64,000 nt of DNA from Pycnococcus provasolii (Eukaryota; Chlorophyta; Pseudoscourfieldiophyceae; Pseudoscourfieldiales; Pycnococcaceae): the NCBI GenBank assembly GCA_938743325.2, contig OW568883.1, positions 1 through 64,000 on the forward strand, in the 5' to 3' direction. The first letter of the stretch is position 1, and each line of letters opens with the position of its first letter. The notes below the pieces were generated by a model that searched no databases, was not told where the DNA came from, and worked only from the letters and a program-made list of their open reading frames with translations. Position numbers and translations under genes: made by a program. Below, one piece after another: positions 12,901 to 64,000 of the stretch.

Positions 12901-13595
12901 CCATGCCCATGCTCACCAACACGCGTGCGCCCGTCTCCTCGCGCAGCTTTGGACGCATCTCCGGGCTCGGACTCCGCCCGGCGGCCGCACGCACCGCCGT
13001 GCGCCGCGCCGCCCCCGTGCGAGCTGCCGCGGACGAGAAGTCGACGGTGATCCAGCCGCTGAACGGCGACCCCTTCATCGGCATGCTCGAGACGCCCATC
13101 ACGTCGACGCCCGCCGTTGCGTACTTCCTGTCGAACCTTCCCGCGTACCGCGTTGCGGTGTCGCCGCTTCTGCGCGGAACGGAGGTTGGCCTCGCGCACG
13201 GCTTCTTCCTCACCGGGCCTTTCATCAAGCTTGGACCTCTTCGCGCGACGGAGTTTGCCGAGCTCGCGGGGTGTCTTTCTGGCGCGGGAGTGGTGCTGAT
13301 CCTTTCTTTGTGCCTGACTGTGTACGGCATGGCGTCGTTCCAGCTCGACACGGACGGCGTCACGGAGACGAAGACGCTCAGCGGCCGCGCCATCGCGAAG
13401 GACCCGCTGCAGAGCTCTGAGGGCTTCGCACAGTTCGCGGCCGGCTGGACCGTCGGTGGACTGTCGGGCGTCATCTTCAGCTACATCCTCACGCAGACGC
13501 TGCCGTACTACTCGTAGACGCGCGGCGTTTGCCTCAGCAGGGTAGGTGTGCGGGTGCTTGTTCTTGTTTCTTTTGTTTTTTCCCTCTTCGGTAAC
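12901..13595 (+). repeat. psaL inverted repeat, left arm
   Basis: About 695 bp that recur in opposite orientation at 18925-19618. Homology begins two bases before the psaL start codon, covers the whole coding region and continues about 80 bp into the 3' flank, where small indels appear. The 5' flanks of the two copies are unrelated. Confidence 0.93.
12903..13517 (+). CDS. psaL: Photosystem I subunit XI (PsaL), copy 1
   Basis: PsaL is a thylakoid membrane subunit of photosystem I involved in trimerisation or docking of light-harvesting proteins and PsaI/PsaH. The 204-residue precursor has an Arg/Ser/Ala-rich transit peptide to about residue 42. The mature part starts VIQPLNGDPFIGMLETPI, a signature of PsaL, then LSNLPAYR, GLAHGFFLTGPF and two or three hydrophobic helices (LAGCLSGAGVVLILSLCL, VGGLSGVIFSYIL). 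The protein is identical to copy 2; only two coding differences, both third-position C/T at 13151 and 13190, separate them. A pyrimidine-rich leader precedes the ATG. Confidence 0.97.
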   Translation: MPMLTNTRAPVSSRSFGRISGLGLRPAAARTAVRRAAPVRAAADEKSTVIQPLNGDPFIGMLETPITSTPAVAYFLSNLPAYRVAVSPLLRGTEVGLAHGFFLTGPFIKLGPLRATEFAELAGCLSGAGVVLILSLCLTVYGMASFQLDTDGVTETKTLSGRAIAKDPLQSSEGFAQFAAGWTVGGLSGVIFSYILTQTLPYYS

Positions 13596-13833
13596 CACGA
13601 CGGAAGCACGAAAACAAGTACAGAAAGGTCGCACACACGCCATCGTAGTACTCAGTCGAAGCATTTAGGGTTTTATCGAACCCGACTGCCCGAATAATGG
13701 GAGGTTTTGAATTTCCCTCCCCTTCTTCTCCCGGCTTTGGATTCCGCCCCTCCGCACCCCTCCATAGAAGAGCTGTGAGCTGTGGAGTGCACGCGACGGC
13801 GACGACGACGCCGACGCCCACCCACTGACGACG
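13518..13833. other. Spacer between psaL copy 1 and the TDP2-like gene
   Basis: The first about 78 bp belong to the psaL inverted repeat. TTTAGGGTTTT at 13664-13674 is a telobox-like motif about 160 bp before the next start. No gene seen. Confidence 0.5.
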
Positions 13834-18880: not shown

Positions 18881-18924
18881 CCTTTTGATACTTGATTTGA
18901 AAAATCGTGCGTCGTTCGTGCGTC

Positions 18925-19618
18925 GTTACCGAAGAGGGGAAAAAGAAAGAAACAAGAACAAGCACCCGCACACCTACCCTGCTGAGGCAAACGCCGCGCG
19001 TCTACGAGTAGTACGGCAGCGTCTGCGTGAGGATGTAGCTGAAGATGACGCCCGACAGTCCACCGACGGTCCAGCCGGCCGCGAACTGTGCGAAGCCCTC
19101 AGAGCTCTGCAGCGGGTCCTTCGCGATGGCGCGGCCGCTGAGCGTCTTCGTCTCCGTGACGCCGTCCGTGTCGAGCTGGAACGACGCCATGCCGTACACA
19201 GTCAGGCACAAAGAAAGGATCAGCACCACTCCCGCGCCAGAAAGACACCCCGCGAGCTCGGCAAACTCCGTCGCGCGAAGAGGTCCAAGCTTGATGAAAG
19301 GCCCGGTGAGGAAGAAGCCGTGCGCGAGACCAACCTCCGTTCCGCGCAGAAGCGGCGACACCGCAACACGGTACGCGGGAAGGTTCGACAGGAAGTACGC
19401 AACGGCGGGCGTCGACGTGATGGGCGTCTCGAGCATGCCGATGAAGGGGTCGCCGTTCAGCGGCTGGATCACCGTCGACTTCTCGTCCGCGGCAGCTCGC
19501 ACGGGGGCGGCGCGGCGCACGGCGGTGCGTGCGGCCGCCGGGCGGAGTCCGAGCCCGGAGATGCGTCCAAAGCTGCGCGAGGAGACGGGCGCACGCGTGT
19601 TGGTGAGCATGGGCATGG
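18925..19618 (-). repeat. psaL inverted repeat, right arm
   Basis: Mirror copy of 12901-13595; about 5.3 kb separate the arms. The coding part is nearly identical, the 3' flank shows indels, and the upstream flank is unrelated to the other arm's. Confidence 0.93.
19002..19616 (-). CDS. psaL: Photosystem I subunit XI (PsaL), copy 2
   Basis: Encodes the same 204-residue precursor as copy 1, with transit peptide and full mature PsaL. It is intact and expected to be functional. Its promoter differs completely from copy 1: upstream of the ATG lies CGCCAAACGCCACGG, AT-rich DNA near 19660-19680, and two CACGTG boxes about 200 bp away. Near-identical coding sequence with different upstream regions points to recent duplication or continuing gene conversion, possibly with separate regulation. 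The neighbouring forward-strand gene ends 121 bp beyond its stop. Confidence 0.97.
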   Translation of the reverse strand: MPMLTNTRAPVSSRSFGRISGLGLRPAAARTAVRRAAPVRAAADEKSTVIQPLNGDPFIGMLETPITSTPAVAYFLSNLPAYRVAVSPLLRGTEVGLAHGFFLTGPFIKLGPLRATEFAELAGCLSGAGVVLILSLCLTVYGMASFQLDTDGVTETKTLSGRAIAKDPLQSSEGFAQFAAGWTVGGLSGVIFSYILTQTLPYYS

Positions 19619-45397: not shown

Positions 45398-46357
45398 TTA
45401 CAAATCTTGCAACATAAATGGACCGGCGACGCCGCCGGGAGGTGCCTCGCCGTTGGTGTTGACTCCCCAGCACGCGATGCTGCCGTCGCGACGCAGCGCC
45501 AGTGAGTAACGCCAACCCGCTGCGATCGCGACGAAGTCTCCCACGATGCCGGCGGGAGGCGCCTGACCTAAGCCGTTGACTCCCCAGCACGCGATGCTGC
45601 CGTCGCGTCGAATCGCGAGCGAGTGGCAGCTCCCCGCAGCGATTGCGACGAAGTCTCCCACGACGCCGTTGGGAGGCGCCTGACCTAAGCCGTTGCGTCC
45701 CCAACACGCGATGCTGCCGTCGCGACGCAGCGCCAAAGAGTGACCACCACCCGCTGCGATCGCAAAGAAGTCTCCCACGACGCCGGCGGGAGGTGCCTGG
45801 CCGCGGTTGTTGCGTCCCCAGCACGCGATGCTGCCGTCGCGACGCAGCGCGATGGAGTGCTCGTAACCCGCGGCGATCGCGACGAAGTCGCCCGCGACGC
45901 CATCGGGAGGCGCCCGGCCGTCGTCGTTCGATCCCAAGCACGCGATGCTGCCGTCGCGATGCAGCGCGATGGAGTGACGCCCACCCGCTGCGATCGCGAC
46001 GAAGTCTCCCACGACGCCGTCGGGAGGCGCTTGGCCGAACCCGTTCTCGCCCCAGCACGCAATGCTGCCGTCGCGTCTAATTGCAAGCGAGTGATACGCA
46101 CCCGCGGTAACTGCGACGAATTCGCCGTCGACGCCGCCGGGAGGTGCCTGGCCGTCGCCGTTCGATCCCCAGAACGCGATGCCACTGTCGACTCGTCGCG
46201 CGAGCGAGTGGGCAAAACCCGTGGCAACCAGTCCAGAAGAAGATAGTCGCGCAATTCGAGTTCGCTCACGCTCCTTGGCAAGACGTCGTTCTCTCTGCCA
46301 AGGCACGAATGCGAGTCTGAGCGCCTCGTACGCCAGCTCTCCGAGAGCTGCTGCCAT
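45398..46357 (-). CDS. RCC1-like repeat protein
   Basis: A 319-residue protein from the ATG at 46357 made almost entirely of about seven repeats of about 37 residues with the pattern GDFVAIAAG..HSLALRRDGSIACWG.N..GQAPP. This is the RCC1-like beta-propeller unit. The N-terminus is basic (RERRLAKERERTRIAR). The repeats are also very similar at the DNA level (about 111-bp units), suggesting recent expansion or homogenisation. A regulator of a small GTPase or an E3-associated propeller is possible. An upstream in-frame ATG (46546) could add 63 residues. Confidence 0.8.
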   Translation of the reverse strand: MAAALGELAYEALRLAFVPWQRERRLAKERERTRIARLSSSGLVATGFAHSLARRVDSGIAFWGSNGDGQAPPGGVDGEFVAVTAGAYHSLAIRRDGSIACWGENGFGQAPPDGVVGDFVAIAAGGRHSIALHRDGSIACLGSNDDGRAPPDGVAGDFVAIAAGYEHSIALRRDGSIACWGRNNRGQAPPAGVVGDFFAIAAGGGHSLALRRDGSIACWGRNGLGQAPPNGVVGDFVAIAAGSCHSLAIRRDGSIACWGVNGLGQAPPAGIVGDFVAIAAGWRYSLALRRDGSIACWGVNTNGEAPPGGVAGPFMLQDL

Positions 46358-50069: not shown

Positions 50070-50576
50070 ATGGGGTGCACGTCCTCCAGGTCGGTGCAAA
50101 CGCACGACAAAGTGTACTGGATCCAGGATAAGGGCAAGGGAAAGAGCAGCAGGTCAGCACGCCAACGCATCGAAGAAGCGCTCGGGGGACACGAGGACAT
50201 GAGCGTCACGGTTGGCTCGCACAGCAGCGCAAGCTTTACGTCCAACAACTCGTTGGGCGCGTCTAGCGTGAGCAGCTTCTCACTGTCGATGTCGTCGTTC
50301 ACGTCGCAAACTTCCGACGAAGGAGACAACGAAGGCCGGCCCAGGTCGACGAACGATGGACGAAGGACGGAGAGCCTTGAGCGTATCATGGACAGCGCCA
50401 TGAATGGTTTCGGCAACGCGCGACTTGATTTGGAAAAGGCGAGTCTCGCAGAAGTCAAGAGGCGTGCGCTCGTGGTGAAGTACGAGCAGACGAGGCGGCG
50501 CGCGAGGAAGCAGATCGCTGAAGAGCCGGAGTGGGACTACTTGAGCTCGAGTCTCTACGACACCAACTCGGACTGA
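50070..50576 (+). CDS. Small unknown protein with MGC acylation motif
   Basis: A 168-residue protein of unknown function. It begins MGCTSSRSVQ, a classic dual-acylation motif (Gly2 myristoyl, Cys3 palmitoyl) that would hold it on a membrane. The middle is Ser-rich (residues about 48-90). The C-terminal half forms a charged helix (LERIMDSAMNGFGNARLDLEKA) and ends with an acidic EPEWDYLSSSLYD segment. It is likely regulatory or structural. No family recognised. Confidence 0.6.
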   Translation: MGCTSSRSVQTHDKVYWIQDKGKGKSSRSARQRIEEALGGHEDMSVTVGSHSSASFTSNNSLGASSVSSFSLSMSSFTSQTSDEGDNEGRPRSTNDGRRTESLERIMDSAMNGFGNARLDLEKASLAEVKRRALVVKYEQTRRRARKQIAEEPEWDYLSSSLYDTNSD

Positions 50577-50954
50577 TTCCTTCCTCTCCTCTCTATACAA
50601 CACATCACCACCTTAAGCACACGCCAACATCAAACCAAATAAAACGGCTGACTCGTTGATTAGCTTGTGCGTGACCAAAGCATAAAAATAACCTGTAAAT
50701 CTGTAAACCGTTTGACGACGACGGACATTCTTTAGAATATTTTTTTATACAAAAAGTAACCACAATGAAGAACCACAATGATGAATGAACTCCTCTTCAA
50801 AACGCGATCAAACTCAACAAGTGTTCCGGTTACACGACAAAGAACAATTCAGGCAATTTCCCGCTCTCAGCTTCCAAAGGAAGCGGATCTTCTTTCCGCA
50901 GGAATGCCGTCACATAGTCCAAGCGCAAAAACCGAAACGTGCAACTATCTGGCT
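50577..50954. other. Convergent spacer, 3' region of the selenoprotein
   Basis: This is the 3' side of the deiodinase-like gene (minus strand), where a SECIS element should lie. On the minus strand about 50915-50855 reads GTGACGGC, then a stem with an AAAG segment, then GGAAGCTGAG. This gives the 5' TGA and 3' GA pair expected at a SECIS core, but the stem is imperfect and I treat it as a candidate only. Confidence 0.3.
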
Positions 50955-51566
50955 CTAGTCACCATCTTGAATATTGTCGAGCCATCGGGGAATACAACTC
51001 GGATCGTGCATGCCACGCTCAGCACGAGAAACGAAGCCAATCGTGTTATTATTTGCAGTCAGCCCGAAGAATCGGAATGGCCACGGCGACCAGTCGCGTT
51101 CAAACTCGTCACCACGCTCGATGTCGTCGCACACCACCAAGTCCACCATATCTGCAAAGCACTCGAAGTCTCGGGCAAACGCACGCGCCTCCTCAATGCG
51201 AGCAGCCTGCTTGGTCGGTTGCTTGACTGACACGGGCCCTCGTCCAAGATTCGCGCGCGAGCTCCGAATCGGCCACTCGTCTTCCGCATGTGCCTCGGCA
51301 ATGTAGACGAAGAGGAAGCGCGCTCTGGATGCTTCGTTCGCACGCAAGCGCCGCAAATGCGGCACAAGCGCACGAATTGGCGGTCAAGAGATCGAGCCGG
51401 CAATGACGACGACTGGCAACCCACCACCGCACTTCGCTGCCGCCTCGAGCACAGTCATGCGCATTCCATCGATTGTTGTCATGCGCGAGGCAGGGGCGGC
51501 ATCACCTGGGCGAAGATTGCCCGCGCTCGCGCGGTTGAAGCGCACGTACAACGGCACTTCTTTCAA
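50955..51566 (-). CDS. Iodothyronine-deiodinase-like selenoprotein with in-frame UGA
   Basis: A thioredoxin-fold protein of the deiodinase family interrupted by one TGA at 51384-51386. The context is VVVIAGSIS-U-PPIRALVPHL, matching the family's GSCT-U-PPF active site with selenocysteine at the stop. Downstream is RFLFVYIAEAHAEDEWPI, the family's VYIEEAH-x-x-DGW signature. Upstream is LRPGDAAPASRM, typical of the fold's start. The reading frame continues 136 codons past the TGA to a TAA/TAG/TGA-terminated end at 50955. Read with selenocysteine, the visible product has about 203 residues. The true 5' end is unresolved: the frame lacks an ATG before an in-frame TGA at 51576-51578, so an upstream exon or an internal start (51479 region) is likely. 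Substrate is unknown; algal relatives are not thyroid enzymes. Confidence 0.82.
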
Positions 51567-51860
51567 ATCTGGATATCACGTCGTCAAAAACCACCTCGAA
51601 AAGGGGACGTTCCGGAAAAAGTAAGTGCCAGCTGACCTTAACAAGATCGTGCGTGCGCCCTGTCGCTAGGTGCCATCTTTGAATGCGCAAGCAAAACGCG
51701 TTTTGTAATTGGTGTTTGCGTCGACGGATGGAGACCGAGGAAGACTAGCAAGCAAGGTGCAAGGCGACACGAAGGCGATCAGGCGTTACCAAAGGCCATC
51801 AGGCCATCTCTTAACAAAGTTATAAAATAAAGTAAGTAGCTGTGATAAATATTATTTTTG

Positions 51861-51906
<46 letters not shown>

Positions 51907-52203
51907 GCTCACGCACGTAGAACAACAGCTGTGTTGTGTTCTTCAACGGCCATTTTCTGCAAAACGAAGGATTCTCCGGAGAAAACCGGAGGAATTCCGG
52001 TGGACTTGTTGGGGGGATCCGTCGCTGCACTGATAGAGTTCATGCTATGGTGTAACTTCTACGTACGGACGGACTGCCTTGCCTTACGCAGGCCACCTCG
52101 CCTTGCCTCGCCTTGCCCCTCGCCTCGCCATCCGCGTAGCCACTCGCTCGTAGCCACTCGCCGCGCCATTCATTCCGCGCGGCCGGCAACCACCGCCGCC
52201 ATC
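51567..52203. other. Spacer upstream of the Crypton-like gene
   Basis: Holds an (AAC)n microsatellite at about 51862-51906 and a CGCCTTGC-type repeat at 52075-52135. The first exon of the deiodinase-like gene may lie here. No other gene recognised. Confidence 0.4.
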
Positions 52204-54822
52204 ATGAACCATGTCGGTAGTTCGAAGAGCTGGACAGGCCAAAAGGCAAACGTTGTCCGGATCCACGATGTCTTTGCACAGACTTGCAAAGACACAATGT
52301 GGTCCGATTGCACTGAGGAGGAGCTCACGTCGAAGGCGCGCTACGCGAGGTTCGCAGACTTCCTCGTCGACGGATATAGGTCAAAGCAGAACGAGCAACT
52401 TAGCATCAATCCCGCGGTGAACTATCTGACTACGCTCATCAATCTGGCGAAGGCGAGGGTCGCCACTTCTGAGAGGAAGGAGACGCGAATGTTCTTCACT
52501 TGTCTAGAGAAGAACTCGGCAACAGAGGAGAGCGCTTGGCTAGAGGGACTGAAGCACAATATGAAAAGGGTGATATTCGAAAGGCAGAAGGAGCACGGTG
52601 AGCTGATTGACAAGAGCGCGACGCCGATCTACTCGGATACAATTCGTGCGTGCGTGCGTGCCTACCAGCTTACCACTGGCTCGGCCGAGGCGATCATGAG
52701 GGCGCTCGTCATCATATGCCTATGGCTGGCTGCTGGACGTGCGTCGGAGGTTGCTTGGCTTACGTTCGACAGTTTGAAATGGGATTCGTTACACCAATGC
52801 GTTCTTCAAGAGGTGCTTCAGAGCAAGACCTCAAAGAGCAAGATGGTTGCTTATGTCGCAGGATCGTGCCGCCATCTGTGTTGGTTTCTTGCTTTCGGAG
52901 ACTTCCTCACGATGTGCTTGGCGTCGATAATCTACAACGAGGAGCGCTGCCAGAACTGGATGTTTCCAGACTTGCAAGGCTATGATGCGCCGCGCAAGAG
53001 GGTCGGCACATACTTCAAAGCTCTGCGCCCATCATCGAGGAGCGCGGGGGCCCGTAAGTTCCCGGAAGTGGACGGCCTGCCAGACGACATCTCGGGCGGT
53101 GGAGTACGCCCTGGTGCGGCTAATACGCTCGTGACGCACATGCCCGTGGAGCTCGCATGTGCTGTCACTGGACACGACATGAGACAACAGAGTGCCTTAT
53201 ATGAATATATTGACGCGCATGTCTCGCCGTTGATACCTGGGTCGACGGTCTTGGCAGGGTGGCCAGCGTTCCCTTGGGGACAGCTCGGCAAAGCGCCAAC
53301 GCCGCCAGACTTGGCGCCCATCGAGGAGCGCGGGGTCCCCTTGATTGCCTTAGATGACATCATTGACAAGCTGTACAACATCGACAGCGCCACACCGCCC
53401 ATGTTAGGGAAGACTGGGAGCTTACGACCGGCAATGCGGTGCGCCTTCGCATCGCAGCTGATGTATTTTTCCGAGCGTCGCGCAGTTGGTGAGGCGCACG
53501 ACATTCGTCTGAGCATGGTAAACGCCGTAGGGGCCATCATGAAGTGCGATGCGGCGACAGCTATGGAGTCCATCCTCTCGTGGGGTGCAGTCGTGAGGGA
53601 GAGATTTGACAGCAAGAACTCTCGACTTCACGCAAATTCCACGAACAGCATCCGTACACCGCTTGCGACCGTATCAGACAACGTTGGCGTGCTCTCCTCT
53701 ACGATCGGCAAATATATACATGAACAGCGCATGACGATACAAACGTTGGAGACAATGATAGCCACGTTGAATGCTCGAATAGCAGATTTGGAACTAGTTC
53801 GCCCCTCAAGCGCCGCTACCGCAGCTGCACCCGCATCCGCCGCTCCGAGTGCCGCCGCCACTGCCGGAGGTATATCCACCGCTCCGCCGCCGCAAATGCC
53901 GCAGACAAATGCCACCGCAACAGCAGCTCCTTCTCCCTTAAATGCTCTCATGGCGTACAACGCGGTGCCGGGTGTGAAGAGTGGCACGGCAAAGCTCGCC
54001 TGGGAATTCTACTGGGAAACCATGCAAGATGGCGGAGAAGTTCGTGGGAAATGGAAGTCAGACGGGGAGAAGGGAAGAGCAAAGAAAACCGTCGAGTGGT
54101 TCAATGCGATGGCTACGGAAACGGAAAAGGCGGTGCTGAAGAACAAGACTACAGAAGTAGGCTTGCGGAAGAAGCTCGCGAAGAAGATCCACGACCTTAT
54201 CCTTGTCAGAATTCGCGAAGCCTTCCGAGAACATGGAGCAGTGAAGGGATCTGTGAAACCTGGATCTGTGATGACATCCGGATTCATAGAGTCACGCGTG
54301 AAAGAGTTGAAGAAGGATCATAACAGCACCATCGACATCAGCACATTTGCCGTGTGGCGGGTGAACTACGAGAGCCCAGACGTGGATGCCACGCCGGGGA
54401 CCGCCGAGCCGCAGACGAAGAAACGCAAGGCGAACGCAAAGCCGGTCATGTTCTGTACTCCTCCACCTACGATAGGTTCGCAGTCGCTCGCCGCCTCGAG
54501 CGGAGGCAGCGGGAGCGGAGGCAGCAAGGGCGGAGCCAGCGGGGGCAGCGGGAGCGGAGGCAGCGGGGGCGGTGGCAAGACTGGCAGCGGGAGCGGCAAC
54601 CTCACCGGCACGGTGCTGTCTCGGCTATTCGCCGCCGCCACCGCGGTGCGATCGCCGTCGGGCCCGAGAGCCGAGGCCGGGAGCTGTGGGAACCCAGGTT
54701 GTGTAATACCCACGGGGCACACGTGCCGCAAATGCGGCACGCCTGTGTGCACATTGTGTGCTGGTAAATTGGGATTGGAGGGGGTTTGGGAATGTAATGT
54801 GTGTAATGCACTGCCAATTTAA
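52204..54822 (+). mobile_element. Crypton-like tyrosine recombinase element
   Basis: An 872-residue protein from the ATG at 52204. Residues about 170-340 form a tyrosine-recombinase catalytic region: AAGRASEVAWLTFDSL (first Arg), GGGVRPGAANTLVTH (second Arg), VTGHDMRQQSALYEYID (His then Tyr). A coiled-coil-like segment and Ala-rich linker follow. Residues about 580-720 resemble a GCR1-type DNA-binding region (AWEFYWETMQDGGEVRGKW). After a Gly/Ser linker there is a cysteine cluster, GHTCRKCGTPVCTLC and WECNVC, a cross-brace zinc finger like those ending piggyBac transposases. No reverse transcriptase is present, so a Crypton rather than DIRS element is the best fit. The element's ends are not defined. 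Confidence 0.7.
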
Positions 54823-62074: not shown

Positions 62075-64000
62075 TCAAACGTCATCGAGGACACTAAGCA
62101 TTTCACTGTGAAACTCGTGCATAGCGCAGTGCTCGTCGGCATCCTCGTTGGTGGCGTCAGTGCTAGGGTTTTCGTCGTCATCGTCGTCGCTCTGCTCGTC
62201 GGCGGCGGTGAGACGGTTTGCAGCCTCGCGCTCCTCCTGCGCGGCGACGAAGCGCGCGTGTTCTTCGCGCACGTACGAGAACTGTTCTGCGAGTGCTTCA
62301 ACAAAGGTGCGATGCTTGCTTTGTTGGTCTTTCTCTGCGCTTGCCGTTCTGTGCTGGTACATCGCGGCTGATTTTATTTTGAGCAGACCGTTCGTAGTTT
62401 CTGCAGACTGCCTGTTTCTGCCTTTCGTCCTCGTCCTCGCCACGTCCTTATTTGCCCTCTCTGAAGAGCCTTGACCACTAACTTGTGAACACAACTTTCT
62501 CGCCACTTCAGATATGCATTTCTTGCCACTACTGTCCGCCTGAGCGTAAAACAACTGCACGGAATGCTCATCGAGACTGTCGACAAAGCTTTTCGCGACG
62601 CGCTTCGTTCCCACAAGCTTTCCGAACCAGGTGTTCGCTTGCAGCTCTGATAGCTCTATATATTCGCGACGCGCCTGATTCGCTCTGTCCTCATCATCGC
62701 CGAAGTACTTCGAAATAACCTCCTGCAGTGCTTCTTGCGCACCGTCAGGCAGATACCGATCGTCAGCGTATATGTATTTTGGATTCACGGCGGAAGCAGC
62801 TAGGGCCATTGGTGACACGCAGTCGGGTCGCCGCTTGTCTACACATGTGTTGATGTGCGCCACAAGCCCGACCAGGTGATCTTCGCGGTTTTGCAGGTGC
62901 TCTCCCGCAGCTTCGAGCGATCTCATGACAGAGGCATCAAACGACTTCGACACCATGTGGAGGTGTGGCAAGTCCGAGTCGGTTACGCGCAAGAATTCAC
63001 GGAACGGAATGCTGACATCAAGAAACGCGTTGGCACGCGATTTACGCTTCACATTCCCCAGCTCGTCGACGAAGAATTTCACCTTCGCTGATGGCGGATT
63101 CGGCGGCCCTGTCGCATTTCTTCCACGATTTGAGAAATAATTTTTATCAGCGCGCGGTAAATAATCTTGTACTTTCCGTGAGAGAAAAAACGATGGTAGG
63201 TCCTCCCACACTAAGACTATTGATTCCACGGCAACTGTTGTTGAGGCGAACCTCGTGTCCACCTCTTGTTTTACCAGTGGGAGCCCAAGCTCGAGAAAAG
63301 CGCCGTAAATTTCGTCGTGATTAAGAATAAATGACGCTATGGCAAGGCACAATTTGATGTCCACCATGAAGTATTTAGCCAAGTCGAATAACAAGAGATT
63401 GCAACCATGTGTAGCACACCTTTGATGGAAGATCCAGTGATATTTTTGTGCCACCTTTTTTGCGGCATTCAGTTGTGATTTGAGTCCATCTGTGCACACC
63501 ATGAACACCAAGCGGGGCCCTATTTGTTCCACACTATGAATCAAATGAGTGGTAAGGTATGCTTGGCTCTTGTGGTCCCCTGTGATGTCATGAGATCTAA
63601 CGAAAATACACGCCTCTGGCGTGACGAAGGTGGTATTCTGTCCTGCCCTTTTCTGGTTCTTCGCACCATCCTCCGTGAGTGTTCCTCCTGTGCGTACCGC
63701 ATTCGCGAGGGGCACCGCGAGCACCTCGTTAGCCCATTTTAGCTTTCTTTCATAGACGGCTCCGCCAGGTCCAAATGCGTGACGGTCAGAGAACCTGCCA
63801 GCAAATCCCGCCTTTCGGAGGACGTTACGAAGTGGGAAGCCAGAAGCTTGGTTCGGGCACACCTCCCCACCATTTGCGAAGTACTCCATAAGGGCCTAGA
63901 AAGATGTACTGTATGTTAGTTCCAACTTCGAAAAGCAAATCAACAGCAAAATTAAGGCACTTTTGACGTACATCGTCCAGGGCAGGTTTGTAATTATCAT
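62075..64000 (-). mobile_element. hAT-type (DUF659) transposase, 5' end off the window
   Basis: At least 604 residues in the last exon (63895-62075). The RNase-H-like catalytic region includes RSHDITGDHKSQAYLTTHLI, VCTDGLKSQLNAAKKVAQKY and QRCATHGCNLLLFDLAK, typical DUF659/hAT features. Later, SAVNPKYIYADDRYLPD and WFGKLVGTKRVAK fit the C-terminal half. The C-terminus is Asp-rich. A 76-bp intron (63896-63971) precedes it, and an earlier exon encoding NYKPALDD continues past 64000. There is no internal stop, so the copy may be intact or a domesticated gene. Confidence 0.78.
63896..63971 (-). other. Predicted intron in the hAT-type gene
   Basis: On the minus strand the donor is GACGAT|GTACGT and the acceptor ATCTTTCTAG|GCCCTT. 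Splicing joins in phase 0 (NYKPALDD then ALMEYFANGG). Confidence 0.75.

Follow-up and report, generated by a model that had tools for sequence, protein, structure and literature searches.

The stretch of DNA analysed here (positions 1 to 64,000 of contig OW568883.1 of Pycnococcus provasolii; hereafter the window, 64,000 nucleotides) carries on its minus strand a deiodinase-like gene with an in-frame TGA. From 51566 to 50955, one continuous frame of 203 residues with a single TGA inside runs to the stop codon TAG (50957-50955). As described in a first-pass annotation of this DNA, two frames in the same phase are parted solely by this TGA; the other five frames hold stops (4 and 8 in the remaining minus-strand frames across the interval; 1, 2 and 3 in the plus-strand frames). 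The active-site context GSIS-U-PPIR, where U denotes a putative selenocysteine (Sec), and the downstream signature VYIAEAHAEDEW were both found as claimed. The start of the gene, which had been placed at TTG 51566, had to be revised. The relatives P0041 (YPDLKGIPLYVRYNRA) and P0054 (YPELRGIPLYVRYNRA) match the local YPDLKEVPLYVRFNRA starting at 51575, with YPD common to both, so that the frame reaches at least this position and the TTG is internal and no start codon. The features of the locus are collected in Table 1.

Table 1. Features of the deiodinase-like locus (window positions)
Feature	Positions	Strand	Basis
Coding exon, deiodinase-like selenoprotein (putative)	50955..51575	minus	YPD + 203 residues counted from TTG 51566; PF00837 across the TGA; YPDLKEVPLYVRFNRA similar to YPDLKGIPLYVRYNRA of P0041
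In-frame TGA, putative Sec codon, residue 61, GSIS-U-PPI	51384..51386	minus	aligned with Sec/Cys of Dio2 and Dio3 and with Cys of P0015
Deiodinase signature region VYIAEAHAEDEWP, residues 87-99 (Y88, E91, H93, D96, W98)	51270..51308	minus	alignment with Dio2/Dio3
SECIS-like element, form II	50842..50920	minus	pattern/helix scan
Candidate splice acceptor CAG	51571-51569	minus	
Second in-frame TGA directly upstream of YPD, marking the 5' boundary	51576..51578	minus	

The read-through product spanning the TGA matched the Pfam family PF00837 with 53.2 bits (E 3.4e-14), above the gathering score of 27 bits. The part after the TGA alone scored 27.9 bits and the part before it gave no match to PF00837, which indicated that both halves belong to one protein. 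In a sequence search of the PDB the top matches were Dio2 (1.3e-7) and Dio3 (2.6e-6), and a 12-row profile retrieved only these two at E <= 0.1. The first structure model, generated from the 12 rows, was poor (predicted local distance difference test, pLDDT, 55) and was set aside. The predicted structure used instead adopts a thioredoxin fold with the deiodinase insertion, and in the fold comparison Dio2 and Dio3 were by far the nearest to the model, followed by 1-Cys and thiol peroxidases and CcmG/ResA. The assignment to the deiodinase family made in the first-pass annotation was thus borne out by Pfam, PDB and fold matches.

A profile search retrieved 419 proteins at E <= 1e-4, of which 120 were listed, and the counts given below refer to these listed relatives; alignment A3 comprised 116 of the 120 (P0093, P0095, P0106 and P0111 were left out). 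The motif GSIS-U-PP corresponds to the GS-x-(S/T)-U-PP of the family, and the putative Sec stands in the column aligned with Dio2 and Dio3. The EAHxxDxW loop is present with its Tyr, Glu, His and Trp, and these residues are almost invariant in the 117-row alignment: Y88 fills all 116 of the 116 rows that are not gapped there, whereas E91 and W98 stand in 117/117 and H93 in 116/117. Arg165, the counterpart of Dio2 Arg226, is likewise conserved in 117/117. In comparison with animal DIO1-3 (mouse Dio2, 9h48; Dio3, 4tr3), the algal protein has Ile59 at the proximal Cys, Phe164 at Dio2 Glu225 (column L 48, F 47, I 15, V 6 of 117) and Pro117 at the relay His (DIO1 His174, Dio2 His182; column P 74, T 20, H 13, A 6, S 4 of 117). 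Human DIO1 is reportedly inactive as H174Q and active as H174A. Both the hormone-contact Glu and the solvent-side relay His of an iodothyronine deiodinase sensu stricto are therefore missing, and the family has its own DEWPIxS and WPxR motifs. In the accessible part of PMC11592359, Glu225 and Arg226 of Dio2 are described as hormone-contact residues; according to an excerpt of PMC9141512, DIO2 itself carries Ala at the proximal Cys position.

The Sec column is occupied in only 4 of the 117 rows, namely by the read-through product, by Cys in P0015 and by Trp in P0041 and P0054. The Trp may represent a TGA translated by a gene finder using code 4. Homologues with neither Sec nor Cys at this position had been named beforehand as evidence against a selenoprotein; the three relatives that reach it offer one Cys and two Trp that are perhaps translated TGA codons. 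In 112 of the 119 relatives with an EAH motif, no more than 32 residues precede the motif His (indels ignored), so that these proteins start at the Sec position or beyond it. Ordinary gene finders halve such genes at the TGA, and the Sec-dependent part of the family is thus hidden from ordinary surveys. A near-copy from environmental sequence, P0002, which is 96% identical across 62% of the query, likewise retains the downstream frame. A scan of viral contigs did not find the DNA of P0041, and a search for relatives in viral and genome contigs gave pattern matches, none of which was confirmed.

A gap of 378 nucleotides (nt) separates the stop codon from the convergent open reading frame (ORF) 50070-50576. 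In this candidate 3' untranslated region, a pattern/helix scan identified an element resembling a selenocysteine insertion sequence (SECIS), in agreement with the expectation of a SECIS in the minus-strand 3' region (50600-50955). The element is composed of helix I (GGAC/GTTC), the core GTGAC (50913-50909) and TGAA (50851-50848), helix II (GGCATTCCTGC/GCGGGAAATTGCC, 11 pairs), AAA at 50895-50893 and a mini-stem of six pairs (GCTTCC-TTT-GGAAGC, 50884-50870); its core TGA sits 42 nt past the stop. Helix II and the mini-stem also appeared in minimum-free-energy folding. The scan score of 28.25 was equalled in 0 of 1,000 and in 4 of 10,000 shuffles, was unmatched elsewhere on both strands of the window (runner-up 26.25) and did not occur in the control strands, which were taken from other loci and amount to 191,030 nt. 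This relaxed scan, with an anchored-helix score, was the second one, and its settings were not blind, as the 3' regions had been inspected by eye beforehand; the shuffles and control loci served as a guard. No SECIS covariance model was built because the alignment of five SECIS stretches lacked structure consistency.

The genome searched (G000; 32.3 Mb, 46 contigs) contains genes of the Sec machinery, namely tRNA-Sec, SepSecS, eEFSec and SelD. The eEFSec is L019 (505.5 bits to 5izk). L017, which TIGR00475 had first suggested, was read as an organellar EF-Tu, and L019 was taken instead; the contig with an EF-Tu-like ORF is probably the plastid. Seven other genes have a single in-frame TGA (2/2 Rdx, 4/5 GPX and 1/1 Sep15/SelM matches), and in four of these seven (SelT L009, SelW L010, GPX L015 and SelM L016) the pattern GTGA...AAA...NGAN scored 24.5-27.8. 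A second deiodinase-family gene (L003:1450-2307(-), G000 C32:123947-124462; PF00837 28.6 bits) is a Cys form, GITCPFYR. The green algal host was borne out by the light-harvesting proteins: 51 chlorophyll-binding-domain matches in G000, some of them fragmentary, mark the organism as photosynthetic, and for the one protein compared the nearest sequences were Lhca3 chains, which we take to be of the green lineage. The SelD of this genome (G000 C14:757116-758039; L034:1372-3663(-)) is a fusion with a Pyr_redox_2 domain of NADH-dehydrogenase-like type; it has no in-frame TGA and, with CGGCG, was read as a Cys form. The accessible passages of PMC4561486 report SelD/NADH-dehydrogenase-like fusions as horizontally acquired in protists.

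From this sequence evidence we conclude, with a probability of roughly 0.93, that the locus is a Sec-decoding gene of the deiodinase family. The central TGA is very probably decoded as Sec, as supported by the SECIS-like element, the Sec machinery and the further selenoprotein genes with a TGA that this genome contains, and the data support a nuclear gene for a deiodinase-family selenoprotein in a marine green alga of prasinophyte type. A SECIS-binding protein together with eEFSec and Sec-tRNA(Sec) would recode the UGA to Sec61. Several observations weigh against this conclusion. A homologue search with the N-terminal half alone found none, and L019 scored 175.2 against TIGR00475, below the cut-off of 242.25. 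The first SECIS scan, which was stricter and required a single hairpin, did not report the element. In the second scan a lower mark of 24.5 was attained by 40 of 10,000 shuffles and by four control-strand sites, 24.0 was reached beside the Cys-form GPX L012, and nothing strong was seen in three of the seven other TGA genes (L011 19.5; L013 16.0; L014 none, or 14.5 at lower cut-offs). In folding energy the stretch with the SECIS-like element was ordinary (z -0.49; 59 of 200 shuffles equally stable). Rfam covariance models gave no SECIS at the gene region, at nine loci or, at the gathering score, in the whole window; this null was discounted because Rfam likewise missed the six other TGA loci among the nine tried.

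A decayed pseudogene, with the TGA as a true nonsense mutation and the absent 5' part as decay, finds its arguments at the 5' end of the locus. For residues 1-63 of P0041 the window offered nothing convincing (the best other E, for P0054, was 0.027), and the genome search for a 5' exon, in which only the best candidates were scored, matched residues 61-234 alone. The second in-frame TGA lies just upstream of YPD, so the 5' part may come from another exon, and the adjoining ORF is read as tyrosine-recombinase-like. An intron ending at the CAG is possible, in which case the YP match to the relatives would be coincidental; of 40 ATG/donor/acceptor combinations enumerated by script as able to supply a 5' exon, none was preferred. 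Decay would, however, hardly place the sole interruption of the domain precisely in the column of the catalytic Sec/Cys, flanked on either side by sequence with coding homology, and with 203 codons free of any further stop, the active-site neighbours retained, a SECIS-like element downstream and the downstream frame kept in P0002, and we regard a pseudogene as highly improbable. Still more improbable is the read-through or reassignment of the UGA to another amino acid such as Trp. The Trp of P0041 and P0054 could be quoted in its favour, but is most simply a product of the code-4 gene finder, and a genome with tRNA-Sec, SepSecS, eEFSec and seven other single-TGA genes of Sec families, as well as the SECIS-like element at the locus itself, argues for Sec.

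With regard to function, the substitution of the proximal Cys, the relay His and the hormone-contact Glu speaks against the chemistry of the animal enzymes. The protein likely works by Sec chemistry on an electrophile. The selenolate, assisted by Ser58/Ser60 and a Tyr88-Glu91-His93 network, would attack an electrophilic substrate atom in a reaction of the deiodinase or 1-Cys-peroxiredoxin type; this atom may be the oxygen of a peroxide or a halogen carried by a small compound, perhaps a phenolic one. As Ile59 stands in place of a proximal Cys, the selenium, once oxidised, would probably be reduced directly by an external thiol, e.g. glutathione or thioredoxin. We give a reductive dehalogenase, rather than a peroxide or thiol redox role, about an even chance. 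A non-dehalogenating enzyme, i.e. a peroxiredoxin- or glutathione-peroxidase-like peroxide-reducing selenoenzyme or a thiol oxidoreductase, falls a little short of that: it would account for the missing proximal Cys, the hydrophobic column at the hormone-contact Glu and the peroxidases and CcmG/ResA that follow Dio2/Dio3 among the folds nearest to the model, and a redox role was proposed for bacterial deiodinase-like proteins (PMC1088965, in part), whereas the nearest fold by far is that of a deiodinase and the EAHxxDxW loop is almost invariant. Thyroid hormone is very unlikely to be the natural substrate.

The first-pass annotation overrated the unusualness of an algal deiodinase, since DIO is already established among the algal selenoproteins: in the available portion of The algal selenoproteomes (PMC7539508) it is one of 42 families, and 80% of its members contain Sec. 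The gene family was known beforehand, and this copy is a well-supported further member. The deiodinase homologue of the amoebozoan Dictyostelium discoideum is likewise a non-animal Sec form with a form II SECIS, for which 75Se labelling reportedly gave a band of the size expected; Table 2 of the same source (PMC2375036, in part) does not list DI for two Ostreococcus species and Thalassiosira. Bacteria hold Sec or Cys deiodinase homologues (PMC1088965, in part). Bacterial deiodinase-like selenoproteins have their SECIS just after the UGA, in contrast to the eukaryotic-type 3' SECIS-like element of the alga, and P0001 scored 65.9 bits against NCBIfam NF038285 (deiodinase_rel), under the model cut-off of 250. 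For Pycnococcus and selenocysteine, the literature seen in part yielded only work on Fe-S synthesis. A compact, testable non-animal deiodinase with a SECIS-like element in a green alga could bear on deiodinase chemistry beyond animals with thyroid hormone. It is conceivable, though rather unlikely, that deiodinase-like enzymes of the DEWPIxS/WPxR type form a large Sec-dependent clade in the plankton, hidden because gene finders cut them at the UGA, and apply deiodinase chemistry to a non-hormone substrate, e.g. halogenated phenols or halotyrosines; if true, this would tie halogen cycling to how marine phytoplankton are supplied with selenium.

Upstream of the gene, a long GTT/AAC triplet repeat (51861-51906) separates it from the divergent ORF 52042-54822 (+), whose translation (GRASEV ... 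GGVRPGAAN ... TGHDMRQQSALYEY) was read as tyrosine-recombinase-like and had no Pfam match; this ORF may be a mobile element next to the 5' end of the deiodinase gene. Elsewhere in the window, 12901-13602 and 18917-19618 form an inverted duplicate of about 700 bases with 99.0% identity, and an RCC1-repeat ORF (45398-46357, minus strand) shows DNA repeats in register per 117 bases with about 80% identity. The minus-strand ORF 62075-63889 contains DUF659 (PF04937, 55.8 bits), presumably a domain of hAT-like transposases.
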